Of a DNA stretch of 43,434 nt, positions 1 through 31,904 are shown in pieces. Source of the stretch: Nitrososphaerota archaeon (GTDB lineage Archaea > Thermoproteota > Nitrososphaeria_A > Caldarchaeales > Wolframiiraptoraceae); NCBI GenBank assembly GCA_021159365.1, contig JAGGRY010000020.1:1-43434 (forward strand). The letters are read 5' to 3'. The notes beneath the pieces are model-generated. The model had not been told where the DNA came from and ran no database searches. It was given only the letters and a program-made list of their open reading frames with translations. A program made the translations under genes and the position numbers. Numbering within the stretch: position 1 is the stretch's first letter; each line of letters starts with the position of its first letter.

Positions 1-553
1 TGCGGAGAAATTTTCTCGTCTTTGGATCTAATGGATAGCCTGAACCGAAGTCTCCGAAAAATGATTTCAACTCGTCGACCAATTCATCCCTTTTGGTCTT
101 TGCCAGAATCGATGCAGCCGAGACTACTGGATACTTTTCATCGGCCTTATGTTCAAGGATGAGCTGGCATCTCACCTTCAACATGTTCCTAATCAAAGAC
201 TCGAAGCTCCCTCTATTTCTTGAGGGTAGATCTATGTAAGCTATATCCGGCTTTAGATCATTTATTATTCGTGAGAAGATCTCCGCCTCAAGCTTATTCA
301 ATCCCATCGCTCCCCGCCTCTTGGTGGATTTGTCGACGGTCTCCGCGTCAACGATCACGAGCTTAACCGATTCAGCTATCTCCTTGATCTCGTCTGAGAG
401 TTTAAACCTCTTCTCTGGGGTGAGCTTCTTCGAGTCTTTGACTCCGAGATCTTCCAATCTCCAAATCTCTTTTTCATCTATTAAGATTCCCGCTACAACC
501 ATGGGGCCTATGACAGATCCTCTTCCAGCTTCATCTATTCCGCAAATCCTCAA
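1..553 (-). CDS. rnhB: Ribonuclease HII (3'-truncated at window edge), probable TTG start
   Basis: Minus-strand translation from a TTG at 553-551 gives LRICGIDEAGRGSVIGPMVVAGILIDEKEIWRLEDLGVKDSKKLTPEKR...MGLNKLEAEIFSRIINDLKPDIAYIDLPS, with the RNase HII motifs GIDEAGRGSVIGPMVV and DSKKL. Absent from the ORF track, probably because it runs off the window. Confidence 0.93.
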   Translation of the reverse strand, partial: MRICGIDEAGRGSVIGPMVVAGILIDEKEIWRLEDLGVKDSKKLTPEKRFKLSDEIKEIAESVKLVIVDAETVDKSTKRRGAMGLNKLEAEIFSRIINDLKPDIAYIDLPSRNRGSFESLIRNMLKVRCQLILEHKADEKYPVVSAASILAKTKRDELVDELKSFFGDFGSGYPLDPKTRKFLR

Positions 554-594
554 CGGTTCATAAAGATGCGGTGATGGGTATTAAGGTTTGGCCT

Positions 595-1959
595 TCAATA
601 CATGAACTTCTCCTTCCATTTATTCAGCTCCTCAACCGATCTCTTGACGTCCGAGAATAGGCTTAGCGCTCGATCCACATCCTTTACCGAGACTTCATCC
701 CTTCCCTCGGCTTTCGCGGTTTCATAGCTCGGCGTCAACAGTTGGACGGCATATCGAAGAGTCGATTGAACTCCTATCTCGGTGAGCTTATCCATGGCTT
801 CCTTTGAGATCTTAACACCTTCCTCCCTTGCCCTTATCTCAAGTATCTTCCTTATCTCATCCTTCGTGTACGGCCTAGTGCTTATGATCAGCATTCGGTC
901 AAGCATATCGAGTGGAATTCCATGAGGTGAAGTTATGTCAGTTCCCCTGACCCTCGTTATACCCCTATTGCTCGCGAAGATCATAATCGGGGCGAGCTCG
1001 CTCTCCATGGCCGCATTCAAGAATGAATACGCCTCGATATCCAATAGATGAACCTCGTCGATGAATAGAACTCCTGGGATAATCTCGGCGGTTCCTTCCT
1101 CAACCCTCTTCTTAACCATTTCATCAACCTCTCTCCTAACCTCGCTGTCAATCTCCTTGGTTGGAGGACCGCCGAACAATAGGCTGAATAATCCGCCGCC
1201 CCTCGATTGAGCGCTGAGCTGATCTAGATCATGTAGGGTTAAGACATAGACGAATTCTTTCTCCTTCTCAACCGGGCCGCCTGGCCTCGGGACAGGCTTC
1301 TCTCCAAGGCCGGCGATATCGTATTTTTCAGCGGCTTCCTCAGATCTTCCTATTCTCGTAACTCTACCGGTCTCGGCGTCTATCGTTATAACGTCTCCAA
1401 CAGTTATTCCTTGCTGGAGTATGTATGACGCTATTGTGGCTCCGGCTCTAAAGACTCTTCGATCATCTTTAGTCGTCAATCCTATCACGACATGATCTGG
1501 GATCTCCTGATATGGATTGTATGGATGTTTTCTGGTCTTTATCTCAAGTTGAGTGACTTCTCCCTCATATACTCTTCTTCTCTCTCTAAGTCTCACACCT
1601 ATGGCCTTCCTCATGGCCTGCGTCAAGACTTCCGTCTTCTTAAGCTCCGATGAATAAATCTCCGATCCGCTTAAAGCAACGAATGGAACATCCTTTCCAA
1701 GCTCTTTAGCTATTGCATAGGCTATTGCGGTCTTACCAGTTCCAGGTGGACCCGCGAATAAAACAGCTCTACCCGCCATCTTCCCGCTCTTAATCATCCT
1801 AACGATTATCCCAGCCGCTTCCCTCGCCTCTATCTGGCCCACAAGTCCGTCTCCAACAGGCTTGGCCTTTAATCCATCGAGTCCAAGTCCCTTGACGTGG
1901 CTATGTGCCCCAACTCTGAGAAACCTTTGACGCGAGTAGTCTGTGATGTCTTCGAGCAT
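595..1959 (-). CDS. TIP49/RuvB-like (RuvBL-family) AAA+ ATPase
   Basis: Walker A AGPPGTGKTAIAYAIAKELG, Walker B GVLFIDEVHLLDIEAYSFLNAAMES, sensor FASNRGITRVRGTDITSPHGIPLDMLDRMLII, and an inserted DNA-binding-like domain between Walker A and B, all typical of TIP49. Confidence 0.95.
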   Translation of the reverse strand: MLEDITDYSRQRFLRVGAHSHVKGLGLDGLKAKPVGDGLVGQIEAREAAGIIVRMIKSGKMAGRAVLFAGPPGTGKTAIAYAIAKELGKDVPFVALSGSEIYSSELKKTEVLTQAMRKAIGVRLRERRRVYEGEVTQLEIKTRKHPYNPYQEIPDHVVIGLTTKDDRRVFRAGATIASYILQQGITVGDVITIDAETGRVTRIGRSEEAAEKYDIAGLGEKPVPRPGGPVEKEKEFVYVLTLHDLDQLSAQSRGGGLFSLLFGGPPTKEIDSEVRREVDEMVKKRVEEGTAEIIPGVLFIDEVHLLDIEAYSFLNAAMESELAPIMIFASNRGITRVRGTDITSPHGIPLDMLDRMLIISTRPYTKDEIRKILEIRAREEGVKISKEAMDKLTEIGVQSTLRYAVQLLTPSYETAKAEGRDEVSVKDVDRALSLFSDVKRSVEELNKWKEKFMY

Positions 1960-2075
1960 ACTTCATCTCACCCAAATTATCGTGGACTGAAACTTCAATA
2001 AAGATTTAACCTCCGCTTAGAATTGCTTGAAGATGATCAAGTTAATATCTGGGTCTTTCACGAATATAATCGACC

Positions 2076-3038
2076 ATGACAAGCTTTCATCCACTCCTAG
2101 TTGGAATACATCCTAGAAGCGAGAAGCTGATAAAGACCTTTAGAGCATATTCTCGTAAAAAGATAAGTTTAGATGAATTGAATGGAACTCTTCAGAAGGA
2201 GTCGAGGGAGATAATCAAGCTCCAACTAGACTTGAATTATAGATACGTGATCGATGGAATGCTTAGATGGCATGATCTTTTGAGACCGCTAGCCGAGAAA
2301 CTTGACGGAGTTGAGATAGATGGACTTTCAAGGTGGTTTGACAACAACCTATTCTATAAGAAGCCGGTGATTATGGACGAGGTTAAGAGAACGGATGAAA
2401 TCTTAAAAGAATATATCTATCCGAGTGATGTCCCCGATGGAAGATTTAAGCTGATCTTACCCGATCCATTTACGTTCACATCGCTTTCAGAGCTTAGGAG
2501 AAGGAGATTTGATGATGTTCTTTTCGAGGTCTCTAAAGCCATGAATGAGGAAATCAAGGAGATCGAAATGAAGATCAAGCTTGGACAGGTTCAATTATCC
2601 GCTCCTTCCCTCGTCTGGAGAAAACTTGATGAAGACTCTCTAGAAATGGCTACAGACGCGATAGATGAATGCTTTAAAGGGGTTTCGGCTGAAACCATGA
2701 TCCACCTGCCATTCGGGGATGCATTAAACTCTTTTCCACAAATTCTTGATACGAGAGTGAATGTGATCGGATTTGATATGACCTCGACCAAGCTGAGGGA
2801 ATTGAGAGAATATAGGATCGATCGAGGCGTTGGGTTGGGATTCGTAGATGGGAGGAATAGTTTAATTGAGGATGTTAATTTTGTGAGAAGGAAGATTGAA
2901 GCTTATCTCGAATCGAATGAGCCTAAAGTGATCTACATAACTCCGAGCTGCGACCTCGAGCATCTTCCAAGAAATGTAGCCGATGAAAAGGTCAAGCTCT
3001 TGAAAAGAATAGTTGACGAGCTTGAGGAGGCTGAGTGA
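2076..3038 (+). CDS. MetE-like protein, N-terminal/paralogous methionine synthase subunit
   Basis: TIM-barrel MetE-like sequence with terminal PSCDLEHLPRNVADEKVKLLKRIVDEL. Immediately upstream of and overlapping a MetE C-terminal domain gene. Confidence 0.75.
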   Translation: MTSFHPLLVGIHPRSEKLIKTFRAYSRKKISLDELNGTLQKESREIIKLQLDLNYRYVIDGMLRWHDLLRPLAEKLDGVEIDGLSRWFDNNLFYKKPVIMDEVKRTDEILKEYIYPSDVPDGRFKLILPDPFTFTSLSELRRRRFDDVLFEVSKAMNEEIKEIEMKIKLGQVQLSAPSLVWRKLDEDSLEMATDAIDECFKGVSAETMIHLPFGDALNSFPQILDTRVNVIGFDMTSTKLRELREYRIDRGVGLGFVDGRNSLIEDVNFVRRKIEAYLESNEPKVIYITPSCDLEHLPRNVADEKVKLLKRIVDELEEAE

Positions 3039-4167
3039 ATTGGCGAAATTGTTTCCAACGCAGGAAGTTGGAAGTCTTTCAAAAGCTCCTTTTCTGAAGA
3101 AGATAACTAGGGAGAGGATTGAAGAGACTAAGCGGTGGGGTGAGCTGCTTGGAGTCGAGGGATTGAATGAACTTCTAAACCTATTAAGCGATCCTGATAA
3201 GGCCTATAAGAACATGGATAAGCTCTATGACTACGCATCTCTCTTCGCGATAAGATTCTTCGAGAAGGCTGGGCTAGACGTCGTTTGGGATGGAGAGCAG
3301 AAAAGGATAGAGATGTATGAATACCCATTAAATTATGTCGAGAACTTCAAGTTCCTCGGAGTCGTAAAGGTCTGGGATAACGAATTCTATAGGAAAGGAG
3401 CGTTCATGGGAGAGCCCAAGCTGAAGAAGCCATATCATTTAGATGAATTCATCTTCGTCAAGAAGCATGCGAGAAAAGAGGTGAAGATACCGATAACCGG
3501 AGCATATACTTTGGCAGATTGGTCTTTCGACGAACATTATCTTAAAAGATATCTGGATCTCGAAGACCCGATCAAGGCTAGGAGAAGGGCGAAAGAAGAT
3601 CTCGTGATGGATTTAGCGAAGAACGTCTTGAGGCCTAACATCCTAGCTTTGGTCGAGGCTGGGGCCAAGAGGATTCAGATAGACGAACCCGCGGTCACAA
3701 GTAAGCCTGAAGAAGTCCCATTAATGGTTGAGGCCTTAAACGAGTCCATCAAGGGAATCAATGCGAAAATAACGTTACATGTCTGTTACAGCGACTATCG
3801 AATGCTCTTCCCCCATATTGCCGAGGCGAGGCTTGATCAGATCTCGATCGAATGCGCGAATAGGGATACACTCGAACTCGGCTTAGACGATGAAAAGAGG
3901 AAGGGCTATCACCTGCTAGACTACTTTAAGGAATATACTCCATGGCTTGAGATCGCCGTCGGAGTAATAGATGTTCACACGAATTTCATAGAATCCCCAG
4001 AACTCGTCAGAGATAGGCTGATTTACGCGGCGAAGAGACTTGGAGATGAATCGAAGATCGTGGCATGCAATGACTGCGGTTTAAGAACTAGAAGCTGGGA
4101 TATAGCCTTCAAGAAGGAAGTAAATCTGGTTAAAGGAGCAGAACTTGCGAGAGAACTGTTTAAGTGA
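3013..4167 (+). CDS. metE: Methionine synthase, MetE C-terminal (catalytic) domain
   Basis: VGSLSKAPF start, QIDEPAV, zinc ligands HVC and CNDCGLRTRSW. The likely true start is the in-frame TTG near 3040 (MAKLFPTQEVGS). Confidence 0.88.
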   Translation: MTSLRRLSELAKLFPTQEVGSLSKAPFLKKITRERIEETKRWGELLGVEGLNELLNLLSDPDKAYKNMDKLYDYASLFAIRFFEKAGLDVVWDGEQKRIEMYEYPLNYVENFKFLGVVKVWDNEFYRKGAFMGEPKLKKPYHLDEFIFVKKHARKEVKIPITGAYTLADWSFDEHYLKRYLDLEDPIKARRRAKEDLVMDLAKNVLRPNILALVEAGAKRIQIDEPAVTSKPEEVPLMVEALNESIKGINAKITLHVCYSDYRMLFPHIAEARLDQISIECANRDTLELGLDDEKRKGYHLLDYFKEYTPWLEIAVGVIDVHTNFIESPELVRDRLIYAAKRLGDESKIVACNDCGLRTRSWDIAFKKEVNLVKGAELARELFK

Positions 4168-4629
4168 TCATCTACCTCTACGTCTCGAGACTCCTACAGC
4201 CGTTCCGGTTCTCCCAGTAGTCCTAGTTCTCTGGCCTCTGACCTTCAATCCAAGTGAGTGTCTCACGCCTCTCCAAGACTTTATCCTCATCTCTCTTCTG
4301 ATATCTTCTTTGATGGCGAAGACCAGATCTGAGCCATAGAGGTGTAGATCCTTACCGGTTAGTAGGTCTTTTCTCCTATTCAGGAGCCATGAGGGAATTC
4401 CATGAGCTAATGGATCTTTGGCCACTTCTTCAAGTCTCTTAAGCTCTTCCTCACTTAAGTATCCGAGCCTTTTCTCAGGATCGATTCCAGCTGCTCTAGC
4501 CAAGGCGTATCCGAGCATGACCCCGATTCCCTTCACCTTCGTGAGGGCATATGGAATCTTTAGAGACCCATCTAGGTCTGTTCCCATGAATCTGACGACC
4601 AGCTTAAACTCTTCCTTTGTTGCAGCCAT
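4168..4629 (-). CDS. rps13: 30S ribosomal protein S13
   Basis: FKLVVRFMGTDLDGSLKIPYALTKVKGIGVMLGYALARAAGID...SWRGVRHSLGLKVRGQRTRTTGRTGTAVGVSRRRGR. Confidence 0.97.
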   Translation of the reverse strand: MAATKEEFKLVVRFMGTDLDGSLKIPYALTKVKGIGVMLGYALARAAGIDPEKRLGYLSEEELKRLEEVAKDPLAHGIPSWLLNRRKDLLTGKDLHLYGSDLVFAIKEDIRREMRIKSWRGVRHSLGLKVRGQRTRTTGRTGTAVGVSRRRGR

Positions 4630-4828
4630 CCCTCGCCCACAAATAACTTCAGAAGCTTATAAAGATTGAATCAATTGAAGTGTTAACCGCGATCGCATAG
4701 AAGCCGGCGTCCGTAAACCATTAAATCTCTCAAAAATATGGGGAAATTCGGCGGGATTCCTCATGTAAGCCCCTTGTTCAATGAGTTCGCCTTAAATAGT
4801 AGTTAGGTGGCATAAGTTTTGAAGAATC

Positions 4829-5176
4829 ATGATTCAGGGAATCGAATGGATAATCGTCGCCGCGATAATCGTGATCCTCCTATTATGGGGACCATCAAAA
4901 CTACCTAAGATCGCGAGATCCTTTGGCGAGGCGAAGAAGGAATTTGAGAAAGCGATGAAAGAGGCTGAAGAAGTAAAACAGGAGGGAAGACAGTTTGCCA
5001 CTGAGGTTAAGGAGGCTGCCGTTCAACCCATTAAATCTCTTGCAACTACTGCTACTGAGGAAGTTCAAGCTACTGAGGATAAGTTGATCGAAGTTGCCAA
5101 AGCTTTAGGTATTCAGACTGAGGGTAAGACCAAAGACCAGATCGCTAAGGAGATCCTTGAGAAGACAAAGAAGTAG
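4829..5176 (+). CDS. tatA: Sec-independent translocase TatA/E-type protein with C-terminal SAP/Rho-N-like module
   Basis: N-terminal TM helix, GPSKLPKIARSFGEAKKEF amphipathic helix, followed by DKLIEVAKALGIQTEGKTKDQIAKEILEKTKK. Confidence 0.9.
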   Translation: MIQGIEWIIVAAIIVILLLWGPSKLPKIARSFGEAKKEFEKAMKEAEEVKQEGRQFATEVKEAAVQPIKSLATTATEEVQATEDKLIEVAKALGIQTEGKTKDQIAKEILEKTKK

Positions 5177-5196
5177 CTTTCTGTAAGTGAGGTGAA

Positions 5197-5436
5197 ATGG
5201 CGTTACTCGGCCCCGAACTCCTAGTCTTGCTAATATTATTGATAATCTTATTTAGACCGAGAACTATAACTGAGATTAGTAGAGGCTTAGGGAGACTAGT
5301 TGGAGAGTTCAAGCGCGGAGGATCTGAGGAAAAGAGGAGAAAATTGGTCAAGGTTGCGGAGGATCTTGGAATAGATCCAAAGGGAAAGAGCGAGGAGGAG
5401 CTTTTAGAGGAAATTAGGAGAAAACTTTTCGCCTAG
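5197..5436 (+). CDS. Second TatA/E-type protein
   Basis: MALLGPELLVLLILLIILFRPRTITEISRGLGRLVGEFKRG, with C-terminal KLVKVAEDLGIDPKGKSEEELLEEIRRKLFA. Confidence 0.85.
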   Translation: MALLGPELLVLLILLIILFRPRTITEISRGLGRLVGEFKRGGSEEKRRKLVKVAEDLGIDPKGKSEEELLEEIRRKLFA

Positions 5437-5455
5437 AATCTCGGGGGAGTTAGAG

Positions 5456-6385
5456 ATGCCTGAGAAGGGAGAGAAGCTGAGAGACATGAAGGAGATGACC
5501 CTACTCGAACATCTAATCGAGCTTAGAGATAGGCTTAAGGTATGCTTGATAACTATCGGCGTTCTAACGATAGTGATGCTCGTCTTTCCAGCGGAGCTAA
5601 ACATAACTTGGGAGAAAGCCCTTTACGCCTATAAGCCCATGGTCTCTTTGGTCTTAGATGTTTTGAGGAACATGGTTCTGCCGAAAGATATGAGGCTTAT
5701 AGGTTTAACGATAACAGCTCCGCTTGAACTCTACTTCATAGCATCTCTCATCTTCGGCTTAATCTTCAGCAGTCCTGTGATAGGATATGAGATATTCAAG
5801 TATGTCGATCCAGCGCTCTACCCACATGAAAGGAGGATGATATATCCATTTATGGCCGCCTTCTTGGGACTCTTCATAGGTGGGCTGCTCTTCGGATTAT
5901 ACATCATAACCCCGGCCACCTTCAAGGCTATGGTAATATTCTTCGCGCTCGTGGGAGCGGAGCCGATAATACATGTGATGGACTTTTACAACACGGTACT
6001 CATAGTAACCGTGGCGACGGGCATAATCTTCACAACTCCAGTCATACTCGTCCTGTTAGTCAGGGTTGGAATCATAGGTACTGAAGTTATCACAAGGAAT
6101 AGAAAGTGGATCTATGGAGTGGCATATATCGTCGCAGCGATAATAACTCCAGATGGAGGAGTATTCACAAATCTTCTCCTGCTTGGAGTCTTCATCGTGC
6201 TAATTGAAGGGGCGGTGATAGTAGCGCGGAGATATGAGAAGAAGAGGGAACTCGAAGAGAGGGGCGGCTCCATGAAAGAAATCGAACAGCCGCCGCCTAA
6301 ACCTGGAGTAGATATCTGCAAGTTCTGCGGCAAACCATTAAACGGAAAACTATTTTGTCCTTGGTGTGGTAGATCTCAGAGATAG
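5456..6385 (+). CDS. tatC: TatC twin-arginine translocase subunit with C-terminal zinc ribbon
   Basis: MTLLEHLIELRDRLKVC TatC start, multiple TM segments, SSPVIGYEIFKYVDPALYPHERR. C-terminal CKFCGKPLNGKLFCPWCGRSQR. Confidence 0.95.
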   Translation: MPEKGEKLRDMKEMTLLEHLIELRDRLKVCLITIGVLTIVMLVFPAELNITWEKALYAYKPMVSLVLDVLRNMVLPKDMRLIGLTITAPLELYFIASLIFGLIFSSPVIGYEIFKYVDPALYPHERRMIYPFMAAFLGLFIGGLLFGLYIITPATFKAMVIFFALVGAEPIIHVMDFYNTVLIVTVATGIIFTTPVILVLLVRVGIIGTEVITRNRKWIYGVAYIVAAIITPDGGVFTNLLLLGVFIVLIEGAVIVARRYEKKRELEERGGSMKEIEQPPPKPGVDICKFCGKPLNGKLFCPWCGRSQR

Positions 6386-6696
6386 GTCTCCGCGACTTCC
6401 TTCGCTTTTCTCATAGTTCCGCTGATGACCAACGTTCTTATGGCAATATCTTCTCCATCCAGCTTCGTTACAGATGCGGTTGCCAAGAGTAGGTTGGGGA
6501 GATGTTTCAGGAAACATCTGATAATCGCCACTCCCTCGTCTCTGTAAACTTTCATGACTTTAAATCCAGATATGGCTAAACCGAATAATCCGAATAACTC
6601 TCTATATGATGACTTTACAGCATTTACGATGCTATCTCCCGAAAGTCTGGGCTCGGCCATGATGACAACATATCTCCTCTTCAACCTCTTAGCCAA
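6376..6696 (-). CDS. rnp2: RNase P protein component 2 (Pop5 family)
   Basis: MAKRLKRRYVVIMAEP...SGDSIVNAVKSSYRELFGLFGLAISGFKVM...VAIIRC. Adjacent to rnp3. Confidence 0.9.
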   Translation of the reverse strand: MAKRLKRRYVVIMAEPRLSGDSIVNAVKSSYRELFGLFGLAISGFKVMKVYRDEGVAIIRCFLKHLPNLLLATASVTKLDGEDIAIRTLVISGTMRKAKEVAETYL

Positions 6697-7366
6697 GCCT
6701 CATAACACCTCTCATAACGTAATTCTTCGATAATTTCACTAAATTCTCCTCGATTAAGTTAGTTGCCTCAATCGAGATCGAGTTCAAGGCCCTTTCCTCA
6801 TCGAATCCTAGGACTTGAAGTAGGGAAGCAAGTTGCCTCGGATTTCTTAGTTCAAGGCTACATGAACCTGCAGACGAGACGATTATTCCACATCTCTTTC
6901 CCAAGACTGATACAATTTCAGACGCTGTTCTTAAGAATCCACCCTTATCCTTGAGAAAGTATCTAAATGGAAGCTCAACTCTATTCTTGAGTAAGGCTGC
7001 AACCCCCTTATCAAACCTATATCTGGGATTTACTGGAATTATGATCGTATCGACCCTTGAATCTCTCGCGGCCACGAGAGCTGTCTCAAGATTTCTACAG
7101 ATCACGCTTATCACCTCAAATCGTCCCCTGTTCTCTCTAAGCAGCTTCAAAAGTTCCTTTCGACTTGACGGCTCGAGAACAAGTTTCCTATACAGATTTA
7201 GCTCGATTTCTTCCGCTTCTTTTTTCAAGTAATCAAATTTTTCCAGACATTCTCCTCGAAGCTCTAAGACAGCGGAGCTGAATCCAAGTCTCTTTAAACA
7301 CCTTATCATCTCTAAGCATTTCTCTATGCTTTCACATCTCACCCATAAGTCGACATATCTTCTCAT
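6689..7366 (-). CDS. rnp3: RNase P protein component 3 (Rpp30 family)
   Basis: PHP-like barrel protein, FLKDKGGFLRTASEIVSVLGKRCGIIVSSAGSCSLELRNPRQLASLLQVLGFDEERALNSIS. Overlaps the pop5-like gene. Confidence 0.88.
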   Translation of the reverse strand: MRRYVDLWVRCESIEKCLEMIRCLKRLGFSSAVLELRGECLEKFDYLKKEAEEIELNLYRKLVLEPSSRKELLKLLRENRGRFEVISVICRNLETALVAARDSRVDTIIIPVNPRYRFDKGVAALLKNRVELPFRYFLKDKGGFLRTASEIVSVLGKRCGIIVSSAGSCSLELRNPRQLASLLQVLGFDEERALNSISIEATNLIEENLVKLSKNYVMRGVMRLG

Positions 7367-7827
7367 GTTTTCTCGCCCATGAGCTTTTCAAGCAACTTCT
7401 CCACTTTTCCCCTGATATTGACCTGGACCTTGACAGGATCCTTATCCATAATCCTAAAAGATCCAAGATATGCGGCTTGCTTATCGAATCTAAGATAGAT
7501 CTTTCCACCATGCTTTCCAAGCTTCGATCTTTCCCTCAAAATCTCCTGCAAGTCGTATTCGGATAGGTTTGATAATATCCTCGCCAAAGCCCTTTCAGCG
7601 ATTTTTGAATCATCTATTGTAAGCTTGATGAATAGAATTGGATCACCATAATGCCCCGTTAATGATTGGCTTATGACCGAAGCTTTCTCCATGGCCTCTG
7701 ATCCAATTATGTTCTCGACGGCCTTCATAACCTTCTCTTCATCCTCCGTCGCATGACATAGGACTTGGATTAGAATGCTGTCAACTCTCGGCATCCCTTC
7801 TTCACTGATCCCTCGCAACTTTCCCAT
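7363..7827 (-). CDS. Archaeal exosome-associated RNA-binding protein (COG1325-type)
   Basis: VLCHATEDEEKVMKAVENIIG...SQSLTGHYGDPILFIKLTI...GKIYLRFDKQAAYLG. Located next to the RNase P subunits. Confidence 0.82.
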   Translation of the reverse strand: MGKLRGISEEGMPRVDSILIQVLCHATEDEEKVMKAVENIIGSEAMEKASVISQSLTGHYGDPILFIKLTIDDSKIAERALARILSNLSEYDLQEILRERSKLGKHGGKIYLRFDKQAAYLGSFRIMDKDPVKVQVNIRGKVEKLLEKLMGEKT

Positions 7828-27645: not shown

Positions 27646-28169
27646 GAATAAGAATTCTCTCCGAACTACATGATTCAGGAGCTCTCGAAAAGGTTGCCGA
27701 GGCGTTAAGAGAGATTTATGGAGAAGAGGTGAAGGTGGAGTTCGTAGATAAATTATTCGATGAAAAGTTCCTGAACTCTTCAAGAGGGCAGCATAATGCA
27801 TGGCTAATAGTTCAAAATTATAAGCATGTTAGAGCCGATGACGAATACTTGCTTCTGATCACTCTTGAAGATCTATACGCCGCCGGCCTAAACTATATCT
27901 TTGGATTGGCATGGCAAGGAGTTGCAATAGTCTCAACCCATAGACTTACCCAAGAATTCTACGGATTAAAGCCTGATCGAGAATTGTTCATCGAGAGACT
28001 TGTTAAGGAAGCTGTTCATGAGATCGGACACCTACATGGATTAACTCATTGTCCGGATAAGAGATGTGTCATGGCCTTCAGCAACTGGATAGGCGATACA
28101 GATTATAAGTCATATAGACTTTGCAGTAGATGTGAGAGGAAGCTTAAATTATTGAAATCTAAGACTTGA
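27642..28169 (+). CDS. amzA: Archaemetzincin family zinc metalloprotease
   Basis: EAVHEIGHLHGLTHCPDKRCVMAFSN (HExxHxxGxxHC) followed by CSRCERKL. Confidence 0.94.
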   Translation: MRIRILSELHDSGALEKVAEALREIYGEEVKVEFVDKLFDEKFLNSSRGQHNAWLIVQNYKHVRADDEYLLLITLEDLYAAGLNYIFGLAWQGVAIVSTHRLTQEFYGLKPDRELFIERLVKEAVHEIGHLHGLTHCPDKRCVMAFSNWIGDTDYKSYRLCSRCERKLKLLKSKT

Positions 28170-28629
28170 TCACAAACTCGCTCGAACCCTGTTCTCCCTC
28201 AGCCTTTTCGGCGAGTTGACTTAAAACCTTCTTCACCACTGATTTTGAAAGGACTCCTGCTTCGATCAAGTTCACTATCGAGTTCGGTGAAGCTTCTCCT
28301 GAAACCTTCCCGATATTTCCCCTAACCTGCCTCCAGATTAGATGCGTGTTCCCACTCTTAGATCTATAAATGATCCCCAAAACTTCCAAGGCCTTAATGA
28401 ATCTAATGTTCCTTATAGTTCCTAGATCGAGCTTGGAGACCGCCTCGACATAGATCCTTCCCTCAGAAGCATCTCTCTCCGGGAATATAGTTGGGTCGTT
28501 CAGATAGCCTTTAGGTATGAAGGAGAAGCATGTATTGAGGATCAAGAAGCGGCGAAATCGCTCGAGGGTCGTCCTAACCTCTATCCTCACCACCAGCCCA
28601 ACACCGCCCTTCCTCGAACAAAACTCCAA
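28159..28629 (-). CDS. Conserved hypothetical protein
   Basis: 156-aa ORF, convergent with amzA, with coding-like composition. No family recognised. Confidence 0.55.
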   Translation of the reverse strand: MEFCSRKGGVGLVVRIEVRTTLERFRRFLILNTCFSFIPKGYLNDPTIFPERDASEGRIYVEAVSKLDLGTIRNIRFIKALEVLGIIYRSKSGNTHLIWRQVRGNIGKVSGEASPNSIVNLIEAGVLSKSVVKKVLSQLAEKAEGEQGSSEFVIKS

Positions 28630-28828: not shown

Positions 28829-30589
28829 ATGGGCATAGAGGGCAAGACCGCTGCTGAGCTCCTAGGCAGAGGTGGAGTTAGACGTACCTATATTCGAGAG
28901 GTGATCTTGGAGAACTTCATGAGCCATGAGTATTCGAGAATCCCCTTAAAGCCTGGGATGAATCTGATAACAGGGCCCAATGGAGCTGGGAAATCCTCGA
29001 TTCTCCTCGGAATAGCCGTGGCCTTGGGCCAAACCTACACGGATAGAAGTGAGAGGCTCAGCGATCTAATTAGAAGAGGTGAGAAGGCCGCTAGAGTCAC
29101 GGTAATCTTCGATAATATGGAGGTCGATGGAAAGAGGCCGATACCGTGGCTGAGTTCAGATCAGTTGGTCATAACTAGATATCTGAAGAGGAGTGGAGAC
29201 TACTGGCATTACGTGAACAATAGACTTAAGACGAAGGCGGAGGTCGAACATCTACTGCAGAGGCTTGGAATAAACCCGAACAACATGCTGATAATAATGC
29301 ATCAAAACATGATCGAGCAATTCGCGGCGAAGAGCGACGTCGAGAAGCTTAAGATGGTCGAAGACGCGGTTGGAGCATCCCATTTCAGAAGGAGAATAAT
29401 CGAGGCGGAGGCTAAGCTTAGAGATATTCAAGCTCAGGAGAAGAGCCTAAAGAGATCTCTGCAAGAAGCGAGGGCGGCCGTCGAGTATTGGAGAGAGGAA
29501 TACGAGAAATTATTGGCGAAGAAGAAGCTTGAAGATGAGAGGAAGAGGCTTGAACTCGAATATGCTTGGGCATTAGTCTCTGAAGTTGAGTCCTCGATCA
29601 AGAGAATTCAAGAGAGAATTGAAGGATTGAAGATTAAGGCGAATAAGCTCTCAGCTGAAGCAGATTACCATGAAGCTGAGGCGATTAAACTTCGCTCAGA
29701 GCTTCTGAACATGTTTTCAAGAATAGCTGATGGAGAGCATGTAAGCATTCAAGAGTTCGAGAAGAATCTCGATCTGTTACTTGATGAAAAAGTTGAAGCC
29801 GAAATCTCAAAGTTTAAGTTAAGATTAAATGAGTCCGAGATCAGGAGGCTTCAATCCGAGCTTAAGAGGCTTGAATCAGATTTAGCCGAAAAGAGAAGAA
29901 ACGCGGTCGCGCTTGGAGAAAGAGTTGAGACGAGGGAGAAGCCTCAGGACATACTTGAAGAGATCAAGGTGATAAACCTCAAGATAGCCTCGCTTGGAGA
30001 GGTCTTGGAAGAAGCCGAAGATATGTATCTAGTCGCTGACTCAAGGTATCGCGAAACGGAGATAAGATCTAAGGAAGTTGAGGAAAATCTACGCAAAGCT
30101 CTCGAAGAGGTTGAGTATAGGAAGGAACTTTGGAGAAAATTCCTAAGAGATTTGATGAGAGAGGTTGAACCACAATTCAATTCGATCCTTTCAACGGTTG
30201 AGGGAGCCGGTAGAATCGTGTTAAAGAATCTCGAAGATCCGGAGAAAGCTAGCATAGAACTCTATGTGGGATTTAGGGGAACAGAGCCCATGCTCCTAAA
30301 CGCCCATACCCACAGCGGAGGCGAGAGGATCGTTGGAACCCTTGCATTCCTCCTAGCCCTCCAGAAACATGTTAAGTCTCCATTTAGAGCAGTTGATGAA
30401 TTCGATGTCCACTTGGATCCACTTAACAGGGAGAGGATGATGAAGCTCTTAATCTCGACGGCTGAGAGTGAGGCGAGCACACAATATATCATAATAACTC
30501 CTGGAAGATTTCCGGTTGAAGGAGATGTTAACGTGCTGCTGGTTCAAAACGTTGGCGGGAGATCCGTAATAGGGAGGTATGGTGAATGA
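28829..30589 (+). CDS. Short SMC-family ATPase with Smc5/6-like head
   Basis: YIREVILENFMSHEYSRIPLKPGMNLITGPNGAGKSSILLGIAVALG (Walker A). HSGGERIVGTLAFLLALQKHVKSPFRAVDEFDVHLDPLNRERMMKLL (signature plus Walker B). STQYIIITPGRF. Central coiled coil with no Rad50 CxxC hook. Confidence 0.93.
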   Translation: MGIEGKTAAELLGRGGVRRTYIREVILENFMSHEYSRIPLKPGMNLITGPNGAGKSSILLGIAVALGQTYTDRSERLSDLIRRGEKAARVTVIFDNMEVDGKRPIPWLSSDQLVITRYLKRSGDYWHYVNNRLKTKAEVEHLLQRLGINPNNMLIIMHQNMIEQFAAKSDVEKLKMVEDAVGASHFRRRIIEAEAKLRDIQAQEKSLKRSLQEARAAVEYWREEYEKLLAKKKLEDERKRLELEYAWALVSEVESSIKRIQERIEGLKIKANKLSAEADYHEAEAIKLRSELLNMFSRIADGEHVSIQEFEKNLDLLLDEKVEAEISKFKLRLNESEIRRLQSELKRLESDLAEKRRNAVALGERVETREKPQDILEEIKVINLKIASLGEVLEEAEDMYLVADSRYRETEIRSKEVEENLRKALEEVEYRKELWRKFLRDLMREVEPQFNSILSTVEGAGRIVLKNLEDPEKASIELYVGFRGTEPMLLNAHTHSGGERIVGTLAFLLALQKHVKSPFRAVDEFDVHLDPLNRERMMKLLISTAESEASTQYIIITPGRFPVEGDVNVLLVQNVGGRSVIGRYGE

Positions 30590-31344
30590 GGAGGATCGAG
30601 GTCACTAGGGAAGAGCTTGAGCGAATAATCAAATTATGCGAGAACATCGAGAAGAGAGGATTAGATCCATTCACAGTAAATATTCGAGAATTGTTGGAGA
30701 AGCTTAGAAGAATCGTTGAGGAGAATCCAAACCTAGATCATTATATAATCGATGCTGAAACCCTCTATAGGATCTCAGCCTTAATCGCCCTCCAACATAA
30801 ATGGCTTAGAGAGAAGGCGAAGGCATTATTCATCGATGCTCAGATGATCTCGACCAGGCTCGTGGCCATGGATAAGAAGATGCTTGTCAAGGCTTTCTTG
30901 AAGGCTTGGCATCCAATAATCTCACTTGAGCAAATAACCCCTCAAAGACTTAGACAAGGATTAGAGCACTTCCTCTCACTTCCACCTAGAAGTGGGAGCA
31001 GAGAGTTTGGCTGGAAGATAACCGATAAGGAGATGAAGTTGGCTAAAGCGAGACTTGAGCTTGAGGAGAAGGCGATGATGGAGAAGATCAAGGCTCTCCA
31101 TCGAGAATTACTTAGGAGATTCGAAGAACAGGGAGGAGCGTTAGATTATTGGGAATTCATCAAGGGAAAGAATTTCGATGAAACATTTGAGCGCGCATAT
31201 CTCTTAAGCTTCCTAATAACCGAGGGATATGTTGACGTTAAGAGAAATCCGTTAAAGAATGAGGTAAAGCTCATACCACACAAAGAGCAAGTTAAGCGAA
31301 AATCTCCAACTTCTCTCGTCATAAGTTTAAGAGGTGAGATTTAA
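30586..31344 (+). CDS. Candidate kleisin (ScpA-like) subunit
   Basis: ATGA overlap with the SMC gene. EKRGLDPFTVNIRELLEKLRRIVEENPNLDHYIIDAETLYRISALIALQHKWLREKAKALF resembles the ScpA N-terminal domain. C-terminal winged-helix-like segment ETFERAYLLSFLITEGYVDVKRNPLKNEVKLIP. Confidence 0.7.
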   Translation: MRRIEVTREELERIIKLCENIEKRGLDPFTVNIRELLEKLRRIVEENPNLDHYIIDAETLYRISALIALQHKWLREKAKALFIDAQMISTRLVAMDKKMLVKAFLKAWHPIISLEQITPQRLRQGLEHFLSLPPRSGSREFGWKITDKEMKLAKARLELEEKAMMEKIKALHRELLRRFEEQGGALDYWEFIKGKNFDETFERAYLLSFLITEGYVDVKRNPLKNEVKLIPHKEQVKRKSPTSLVISLRGEI

Positions 31345-31904
31345 TGAGCGGAGAAGAGAGCTTTTCGAGGAGATTGATGATCGCGGCGACAATGCTTCTA
31401 TTCAAGAGCCATCGAAGACCTGGAGTTAGGGGCTGGGAGCTGAAGCATAGGCTCGGAAAGAATTACATGAGAGTTATCGATGCCCTAAACTCCAGGCTTA
31501 AGCAACTCGGCTTAGAAATCAAGACCGTTTTCGAGGAAGGTGAAGAAAATAACCTTGATAGAGCGAGATTCTACGTGGTCTTATCACATCCATTGACCAT
31601 GTCCGATTTAGTCGCAGCCGGATGGAGAATAGATGAAGTCGCAGCTCTCTCCATAACCCTCTCAATTCTATCAAGCAGAGGTGGTAAAGCCCCGTTAAGA
31701 GACGTCTTAGAGGTCTTGGAGACGAAGTTCCCTAAGTGGAAGGCTGAAACCTATCTCGAAAGAGCGATTAGAAGAGGATACATCGAGAGGCTTGAAGACG
31801 ATGTATTAACAATAGGCTGGAGAACGAAGGTGGAAGTCGAGCAAAAGGCCCTATTGAAGGCGGTCCTAGAAGCACGCGAAGAAAAAGAAATAAGATCGGA
31901 TTAG
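31344..31904 (+). CDS. Candidate KITE (ScpB/Nse3-like) tandem winged-helix subunit
   Basis: TAATG overlap with the upstream gene. Two WH-like segments: GWELKHRLGKNYMRVIDALNSRLKQLGLEIKTVFEEG..ARFYVVL and AALSITLSILSSRGGKAPLRDVLEVLETKF..YLERAIRRGYIERLEDDVLTIGW. Confidence 0.62.
   Translation: MSGEESFSRRLMIAATMLLFKSHRRPGVRGWELKHRLGKNYMRVIDALNSRLKQLGLEIKTVFEEGEENNLDRARFYVVLSHPLTMSDLVAAGWRIDEVAALSITLSILSSRGGKAPLRDVLEVLETKFPKWKAETYLERAIRRGYIERLEDDVLTIGWRTKVEVEQKALLKAVLEAREEKEIRSD

Follow-up and report, generated by a model that had tools for sequence, protein, structure and literature searches.

An archaeal operon for a hinge-less, Smc5/6-like SMC ATPase with an Nse4-type kleisin and a KITE subunit

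Three adjoining genes of an archaeon from the Aigarchaeota (Caldarchaeales) raise the question whether a complete SMC complex can be assembled around a short SMC protein, and to which kind of SMC complex it would belong. The window, i.e. the whole stretch of DNA analysed, is 43,434 nucleotides long. The initial annotation had described three overlapping open reading frames at 28829-31904, and their positions, forward strand and both stop/start overlaps have been verified (Table 1). Its composition of SMC, kleisin and KITE around a Smc5/6-like head is also upheld, with the kleisin amended from ScpA to Nse4 type. Our analysis points, with a probability of about 0.83, to an archaeal, homomeric SMC-kleisin-KITE complex that is of Smc5/6 type and reduced to the head-proximal half, its subunit interactions being predicted from homology.

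Table 1. Coordinates of the three genes and their features within the window
Feature	Position	Strand	Basis
Gene 1, hinge-less Smc5/6-like SMC ATPase	28829..30589	+	586 aa; Pfam SMC_N 2.4e-34
Walker A GPNGAGKSS, residues 49-57	28973..28999	+	sequence; GPNG.GKS conserved
Short antiparallel coiled-coil arm without globular hinge, about residues 183-440	29375..30148	+	alignment of 28 family members
ABC signature SGGER, residues 496-500	30314..30328	+	sequence motif
Walker B and D-loop AVDEFDVHLD, residues 521-530	30389..30418	+	sequence motif
ATGA stop/start overlap, genes 1/2	30586..30589	+	sequence
Gene 2, Nse4-type kleisin	30586..31344	+	252 aa; Nse4_C, PDB profile and folds
Kleisin N-terminal helical domain, long helix 57-94	30586..30867	+	AlphaFold2, block pLDDT 62-83
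Kleisin middle region, W.PI...EQ motif	30868..31023	+	conserved in alignments; low model confidence
Kleisin C-terminal helix and winged helix	31024..31281	+	Nse4_C and ScpA C-WHD matches; block pLDDT about 63-89
TAATG stop/start overlap, genes 2/3	31342..31346	+	sequence
Gene 3, KITE subunit with two winged helices in tandem, akin to Nse3/MAGE and Nse1	31344..31904	+	186 aa
Winged helix A, residues about 3-80	31350..31583	+	H3-19 H30-37 H41-53 E57-62 E75-80
Winged helix B, residues about 96-157, fits MAGE homology domain	31629..31814	+	model and MAGE profile

The short SMC protein and its head

The shortness of the gene 1 product (mini-SMC) comes from a missing hinge domain and truncated arms. 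None of the 28 family members matched the SMC_hinge family of Pfam, whereas the canonical SMC used as control did. In the 28-member alignment the length of the arm tip was found to differ among families and its C-side portion retains a pattern like that of the SMC neck/joint; the coiled-coil and joint assignments were read by eye from this alignment, not from a structure model. The initial annotation did not mention the missing hinge and truncated arms behind the short SMC. Gene 1 codes for neither a cysteine nor a CxxC motif, and the arms of the 29 relatives examined also lack CxxC; the absence of cysteines led us to reject a zinc hook of the Rad50/ClsN kind for the short SMC. The protein would act as a homodimer; a dimer joined through the arm tips is conceivable.

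The Smc5/6-like head proposed earlier is borne out by the ranking of structural matches. When the C-terminal head was compared with the PDB without the coiled coil, human Smc5 (80.7 bits) was placed above Smc6 (56.4), archaeal Smc (53.7) and Smc1 (28.5), and the family profile gave Smc5 at 1.1e-33, Smc6 at 2.2e-24 and archaeal Smc at 5.3e-22. The host's canonical SMC showed the reverse ranking, with prokaryotic Smc and SMC1-4 first and Smc5 last at 54 bits. Moreover, the signature context HTHSGGER is close to TQSGGER of Smc5, and the PFR, DP.N and QY..ITP motifs near Walker B are common to Smc5 and mostly missing in canonical archaeal SMC. A head tree of 159 columns, in which Smc5 was the sole eukaryotic SMC and one very long Rad50 branch formed the root, failed to place the mini-SMCs together with Smc5; the tree is too short and poorly rooted, and it was therefore not used as clade support.

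Kleisin and KITE partners

Single-protein matches of genes 2 and 3 are weak, so the case for both stands on family-level evidence. With the gene 2 sequence alone Nse4_C gave E=0.0014, under the Pfam cut-off, whereas 24 of the 36 family members matched it (best 3.5e-7). The gene 2 profile placed yeast Nse4 first among PDB sequences (2.3e-6), followed by human EID3 (6.5e-4) and the ScpA C-terminal winged-helix domain (0.018). The AlphaFold2 model is of moderate confidence only (pLDDT 71, pTM 0.38); its six top folds were all kleisins, ScpA C-terminal winged helices also being among the matches, and no kleisin match fell at E<0.001 in this fold search. Hence the kleisin with a C-terminal winged helix seen in the initial annotation stands, and its ScpA-type identity is rejected as Nse4 ranks higher; the family matches Nse4_C instead of the ScpA family PF02616. 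By analogy with kleisin biology, the N-terminal helical domain is expected to bind the SMC neck and the C-terminal winged helix the SMC head cap, and the middle region would be expected to bind the KITE.

Gene 3 was modelled as a tandem winged helix by AlphaFold2 (pLDDT 86.7, pTM 0.76), and this model, the fold search and the MAGE-family matches together uphold the KITE assignment made earlier. Winged helix B consists of H96-111, E115-117, H118-125, H131-143, E147-150 and E154-157 in the model, and it is matched by positions about 118-206 of the MAGE profile. In the Foldseek search of the PDB the best structures were MAGE-G1/NSE1 (1.3e-5) and Nse1-Nse3-Nse4 (1.3e-4), with MukE and JetB further down and no ScpB among the 50 best folds. 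MAGE and SMC_Nse1 were the top two Pfam families by number of gene 3 family members matched. Across 151 genomes, 15 of the 18 MAGE matches, including all nine best, fell on the gene 3 family; the Nse1 matches were mostly off target (2/10 on the KITE gene), so the assignment relies on the MAGE/Nse3 matches together with the fold search. The gene 3 sequence alone had no relevant Pfam match, no match to the ScpB family PF04079 was obtained, and a RING domain is absent from this 186 aa protein, which has no cysteine. When the gene 3 sequence profile was run against the PDB, a designed repeat protein came out on top (5.4e-4), with no single stretch significant by itself; this match was treated as spurious.

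These results bear on the possibility that the trio is a second, diverged canonical Smc-ScpA-ScpB condensin whose hinge has been lost, the Nse likeness then reflecting the general kleisin/KITE fold. Such a reading could appeal to the ScpA winged helices among the profile and fold matches of gene 2, to the canonical-like D and H residues retained in the Walker B region of the mini-SMC, and to the short head tree, which does not separate the options. However, every profile test puts Smc5 and Nse4 above canonical Smc and ScpA, and the MAGE/Nse1 structures stand above all other KITEs for gene 3. Further, the genome already carries SMC-ScpA-ScpB in an operon of its own (ScpB at G000:C12), with a full-length, hinge-bearing SMC of 1147 aa. 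A diverged condensin is accordingly considered unlikely.

Linkage and distribution of the trio

In the survey of 300 Thermoproteota genomes, the SMC family (counted at E<=1e-60) was found in 129 genomes and the kleisin and KITE families in 127 each. Kleisin and KITE occurred together in 125 genomes, kleisin only in 2, KITE only in 2 and neither in 171 (Fisher p about 4e-80, kinship between genomes ignored). Each family gave about one match per genome, the few exceptions being related to fragments. The same-strand order SMC-kleisin-KITE was observed in 27 of 34 loci, covering 24 GTDB families, and the kleisin adjoins the KITE in 32 of the 34; in some families the SMC gene lies apart from the kleisin-KITE pair. 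All 29 good-quality relatives contained the trio, which is housekeeping-like. The three families recur together and the arrangement is not due to chance. The unrelated folds and lost synteny that the initial annotation had set against its own proposal were not encountered: the folds are as expected, and synteny of the trio extends across the phylum.

An SMC-like defence system against plasmids or phages, of the Wadjet or Lamassu type, was weighed on the same data. PADLOC assigned mad3, LmuB and other ABC ATPase models to gene 1, and Wadjet likewise includes an SMC, a kleisin and a KITE (PMC10586767). But the operon has no effector nuclease, among the PADLOC models gene 3 matched none and gene 2 just JetA (E=0.089), and the trio is near-universal in the order and persists across families, unlike defence systems. 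This reading is highly improbable and was rejected, the PADLOC matches being those of a generic ABC ATPase only. The viral-contig scans also gave no relatives, and a viral or mobile origin was rejected on this basis.

Another reading takes the mini-SMC as not self-sufficient, serving to regulate the full-length canonical SMC of the cell or to form a heterodimer with it. Both SMCs do occur in Caldarchaeales, and eukaryotic SMCs function as heterodimers. Against this, the mini-SMC has its own kleisin and KITE, and no SMC besides it was detected in 11 genomes belonging to five families other than that of the host (f8, f12, f29, f47 and f52), so that no canonical partner is needed there. A dependent role is thus scarcely credible.

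Proposed complex and its relation to known systems

For the self-contained Smc5/6-like complex, the following mechanism is proposed. The ATPase heads of two hinge-less SMC copies would come together on two bound ATPs. One Nse4-type kleisin would form an asymmetric bridge: its N-terminal helices would hold one neck and its C-terminal winged helix the opposite head. A KITE homodimer may sit on the kleisin middle, the complex probably being 2:1:2. With ATP bound, the engaged heads and short arms would hold the DNA from below and the KITE pair from above, for which the head-proximal clamp of yeast Smc5/6 serves as model (PMC9191643), and ATP hydrolysis would release it. Since there is no hinge and the arms are short, no large closed ring is formed, and clamping, bridging or short-step translocation of DNA is expected in place of a large-loop extrusion that depends on a hinge. 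Such activity would serve to maintain or repair the chromosome.

At somewhat short of even odds, the trio can be suggested to be a living archaeal stem form of eukaryotic Smc5/6, with Nse4 and a single KITE predating the Nse1/Nse3 split, which would act as an ATP-gated DNA clamp lacking a hinge and would be the sole SMC complex in some archaeal families. If true, a minimal functional SMC-kleisin machine needs neither a hinge nor a closed SMC ring. As far as we could find, no prokaryotic complex behind eukaryotic Smc5/6 has been described; what is known is limited to an archaeal SMC lineage recognised in phylogenetic trees. The operon supplies candidate Nse4 and Nse1/3-type KITE partners, by which the origin of Smc5/6 becomes directly testable. 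Hinge loss with kleisin and KITE kept, in an apparent sole SMC of some lineages, also tests the essentials of the ring/loop-extrusion model. The trio is hence a concrete model for the beginnings of Smc5/6 and for how few parts suffice; as the proteins are small, thermophilic and only three, reconstitution should be practicable. Archaeal ScpA has been argued not to bind ScpB (PMC7055376), and the trio qualifies the view of archaeal SMC complexes as KITE-less.

Among known systems, Rad50 and the archaea-specific SMC-related proteins (ClsN/coalescin, Sph) resemble gene 1 as short coiled-coil ABC ATPases without an SMC hinge. These use a zinc hook (PMC9389158), and Rad50 is without kleisin/KITE partners (PMC10586767), whereas gene 1 has no cysteine and the trio includes a kleisin and a KITE of its own. 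MukBEF and Wadjet JetABC have the same SMC-kleisin-KITE classes, and MukE and JetB are among the gene 3 folds, but their kleisin and KITE families differ by sequence and the trio operon has no JetD-like nuclease. Canonical Smc-ScpA (ScpB) shares the three subunit classes and the ABC head with the trio, and differs in its hinge-bearing full-length SMC and its ScpA/ScpB families. The archaeal 'SMC5/6-related' SMC groups with Smc5 and Smc6 with published support of 100/0.99 (Yoshinaga and Inagaki 2021, via PMC9389158), and the consulted passages of the latter, a 2022 paper, name no kleisin/KITE partner, operon or hinge-less form for it; nor, as far as found, have Nse4/KITE partners or a hinge-less form been published for it. 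Compared by description, the mini-SMC probably belongs to this same lineage. The eukaryotic Smc5/6 core (Smc5, Smc6, Nse4, Nse1 and Nse3) has two different SMCs, two different KITEs, a hinge on long arms and a RING on Nse1, whereas the trio has one SMC gene, one KITE gene, short arms, no hinge and no RING; the two are alike in Smc5-like head motifs and in subunit classes, both having an Nse4-type kleisin with the Nse4_C winged helix and KITEs of the Nse3/MAGE and Nse1 type.

The operon and its genomic setting

The initial annotation placed three overlapping reading frames at 28829-31904, and these were confirmed along with their overlaps. In the host genome (1.25 Mb, 89% complete), the window corresponds to contig C9. 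The closest named relative of the gene 2 product was found in Thaumarchaeota archaeon AUK039 (a MAG, named as filed) with 89% identity, followed in order by Benthortus, Wolframiiraptor, Geocrenenecus, Pelearchaeum, Terraquivivens and Caldarchaeum; on these matches the host is assigned to the Caldarchaeales (Aigarchaeota). Gene 2 was present in 39 of 41 near relatives, including all 29 good-quality genomes. Among 300 Thermoproteota genomes, genes 2 and 3 were each found in 127 and gene 1 in 129 (E<=1e-60); genes 2 and 3 were shared by 125 genomes and both missing from 171, and the four genomes having one without the other are drafts. Matches to gene 2 were obtained in 59 of 127 genera, and 31 GTDB families are represented among them.

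Synteny in relatives had been set beforehand as a test of the trio, and the order SMC-kleisin-KITE was kept on the same strand in 27 of 34 loci from 24 families, with the KITE gene adjoining the kleisin gene in 32. The SMC gene is located away from its partners in families f3, f10 and f47. In f3 (loci L104 and L132), the kleisin gene is separated from the KITE gene by two others, and the SMC gene lies several kb off on the opposite strand. The operon is also interrupted in G001, a genome of the same genus, yet intact in the genome of the window.

In many families an Lhr-type helicase gene, convergent with the operon, adjoins the KITE gene or lies nearby downstream. A functional link with the trio is possible, and this neighbour faintly hints at a role in DNA repair. 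Moreover, 13 loci encode, close to the operon, a conserved protein of about 230 amino acids without Pfam match, in most cases immediately upstream on the opposite strand.

Coordinates of the operon, its neighbours and related SMC systems
Feature	Location	Coordinates (strand)	Details
SMC (gene 1)	window	28829-30589 (+)	586 aa, mini-SMC
Kleisin (gene 2)	window	30586-31344 (+)	252 aa
KITE (gene 3)	window	31344-31904 (+)	186 aa
Orphan ORF	window	28159-28629 (-)	156 aa, just upstream of operon; no Pfam match
Interrupted operon	L131 (G001)	670-3211	about 2.5 kb between SMC and kleisin genes, with a 355-aa ORF in it
Canonical SMC operon	L136 (G000:C12, host)	2925-7567	SMC 1147 aa, ScpA-like 211 aa, ScpB 186 aa
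Rad50-Mre11	L137 (G000:C10, host)	423-3730	compact Rad50 654 aa, CPTC hook; 448-aa Mre11-like gene directly upstream
Conserved ~230-aa protein, example	L124	1040-1729
Conserved ~230-aa protein, example	L128	6357-7040
Lhr-type helicase downstream of KITE	L102, L104, L108, L110, L115, L119, L122, L126, L129, L132, L133, L135
Mini-SMC as sole SMC_prok_A match	G044, G053, G067, G101, G119 (f8); G048, G076 (f12); G201, G279 (f29); G251 (f52); G225 (f47)

Head and arm of the SMC protein

All ATPase motifs of gene 1 are intact in the sequence. The Smc5/6-like head claimed for it was borne out, as Smc5 topped the PDB search (human Smc5, 1.2e-32, the top five chains all being Smc5), the family-profile ranking (Smc5 1.1e-33, Smc6 2.2e-24, archaeal Smc 5.3e-22) and the search with the C-terminal head, which was used separately in order to avoid coiled-coil noise (80.7 bits for Smc5, 56.4 for Smc6, 53.7 for archaeal Smc and 28.5 for Smc1). 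The canonical SMC of the host, taken as control, matched prokaryotic Smc (341 bits), then SMC2, SMC1, SMC3 and SMC4, with Smc5 last (54 bits). Further, the surroundings of the signature and Walker B motifs in the family are Smc5-like (TQSGGER, PFR.VDE, DP.N and QY..ITP), while D and H of DEFDVHMD are still canonical-like.

In a tree of a short head alignment that included a single, very long Rad50 branch, the root was placed on Smc5 (UFBoot 85). Once Rad50 was left out, the mini-SMC, Smc5 and canonical SMC groups formed one trichotomy, in which the mini-SMCs came nearer to Smc5 (mean distance 2.7, 31.5% identity) than did the canonical SMCs (3.0, 26.7%). This tree being uninformative on rooting, the clade with Smc5 and Smc6 is taken from the analysis summarised in PMC9389158, where archaeal 'SMC5/6-related' SMCs cluster with both (support 100/0.99); the gene 1 family is likely to be this published lineage.

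Complete family members measure 572-699 amino acids against 1147 for the canonical SMC, and none of 28 matched the Pfam SMC_hinge model, which the canonical control did match. The family alignment shows the arm as N-side and C-side helical stretches joined at a tip that varies in length and contains no conserved globular insert. Gene 1 has no cysteine and no arm examined has a CxxC motif; hence, a zinc hook is absent.

The kleisin and KITE partners

Gene 2 was proposed earlier as an ScpA-like kleisin; the kleisin assignment stands, but the ScpA type gives way to Nse4. The top six of 350,542 PDB chains in the fold search were all kleisins (RAD21, ScpA and Nse4), albeit with E of 2e-3 to 5e-2. 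The model used (pLDDT 71) begins with an N-terminal helical domain that includes a long helix; its middle is flexible, and a further long helix runs on into a winged helix. Among 177,635 PDB sequences, the family profile placed yeast Nse4 (three constructs, 2.3e-6) and human EID3 (6.5e-4) in the first four ranks, ahead of two ScpA C-terminal domains. Nse4_C was matched by the single sequence (E=0.0014) and by 24 of 36 diverse family members (best 3.5e-7), no other Pfam family being matched by more than one of the 36. The f3 kleisin gave the strongest Nse4_C match of the relatives tested (6e-7), above the Pfam cut-off, and scanning with this model recovered gene 2 in 7 of 21 relatives and matched none of 14 control genomes.

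The tandem winged-helix KITE reading of gene 3 agrees with its confident model (pLDDT 86.7), which has two winged helices. In the PDB fold search, the MAGE-G1/NSE1 complex came first with two chains (1.3e-5 and 2.9e-5), followed by two Nse1-Nse3-Nse4 complex chains (1.3e-4 and 1e-3) and MAGE-A4; MukE, an Smc5/6 core chain and JetABC were among the matches after these. MAGE (8 of 36 members, best 0.0015) and SMC_Nse1 (5 of 36, best 0.0013) were the Pfam families matched most often. Over 151 genomes, the MAGE model gave 18 matches at E<=0.01. Gene 3 accounted for 15 of them and for all of the nine best; the model had no match in 14 control genomes.

Comparison with known SMC systems

The host genome carries two SMC-kleisin-KITE operons side by side. 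Since a canonical SMC-ScpA-ScpB operon is present on contig C12 (ScpB match 6e-37; ScpA-like protein with a weak PF02616 match, E=0.001), the trio represents an additional complex. Each system occurs independently of the other: f7 has ScpB and lacks the trio, the trio is present in f8 and f12 with ScpB undetected, and the mini-SMC is the sole SMC found by the SMC_prok_A model in eleven genomes (f8, f12, f29, f47 and f52).

In yeast, the clamp with which Smc5/6 grips DNA is built from the engaged heads and the necks together with Nse4 and the Nse1-Nse3 pair (PMC9191643). The trio keeps all these parts and little else, with homodimers probably replacing the heterodimers. On this basis, its subunits are proposed to assemble in 2:1:2 stoichiometry into a DNA clamp gated by ATP, in which the SMC proteins would form no closed ring.

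An archaeal SMC5/6-related SMC has already been published (PMC9389158, as summarised there), and archaeal SMC complexes have been argued to be without KITE subunits (PMC7055376). The open-access full texts searched described neither Nse4 nor Nse1/3 from archaea, nor an SMC that lacks the hinge but has a kleisin, and it is not certain that this is the first description of a hinge-less SMC with archaeal Nse4 and KITE partners.

According to a review of the superfamily (PMC10586767), SMC proteins combine a hinge with kleisin and KITE or HAWK partners, and Rad50 carries a zinc hook and none of those partners. The gene 1 family differs from the former in lacking the hinge, and from the latter in lacking the zinc hook, yet having kleisin and KITE partners. 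As hinge, heterodimers and RING are absent, the trio is not a strict member of eukaryotic Smc5/6 and is best filed as an SMC-kleisin-KITE complex of Smc5/6 type.
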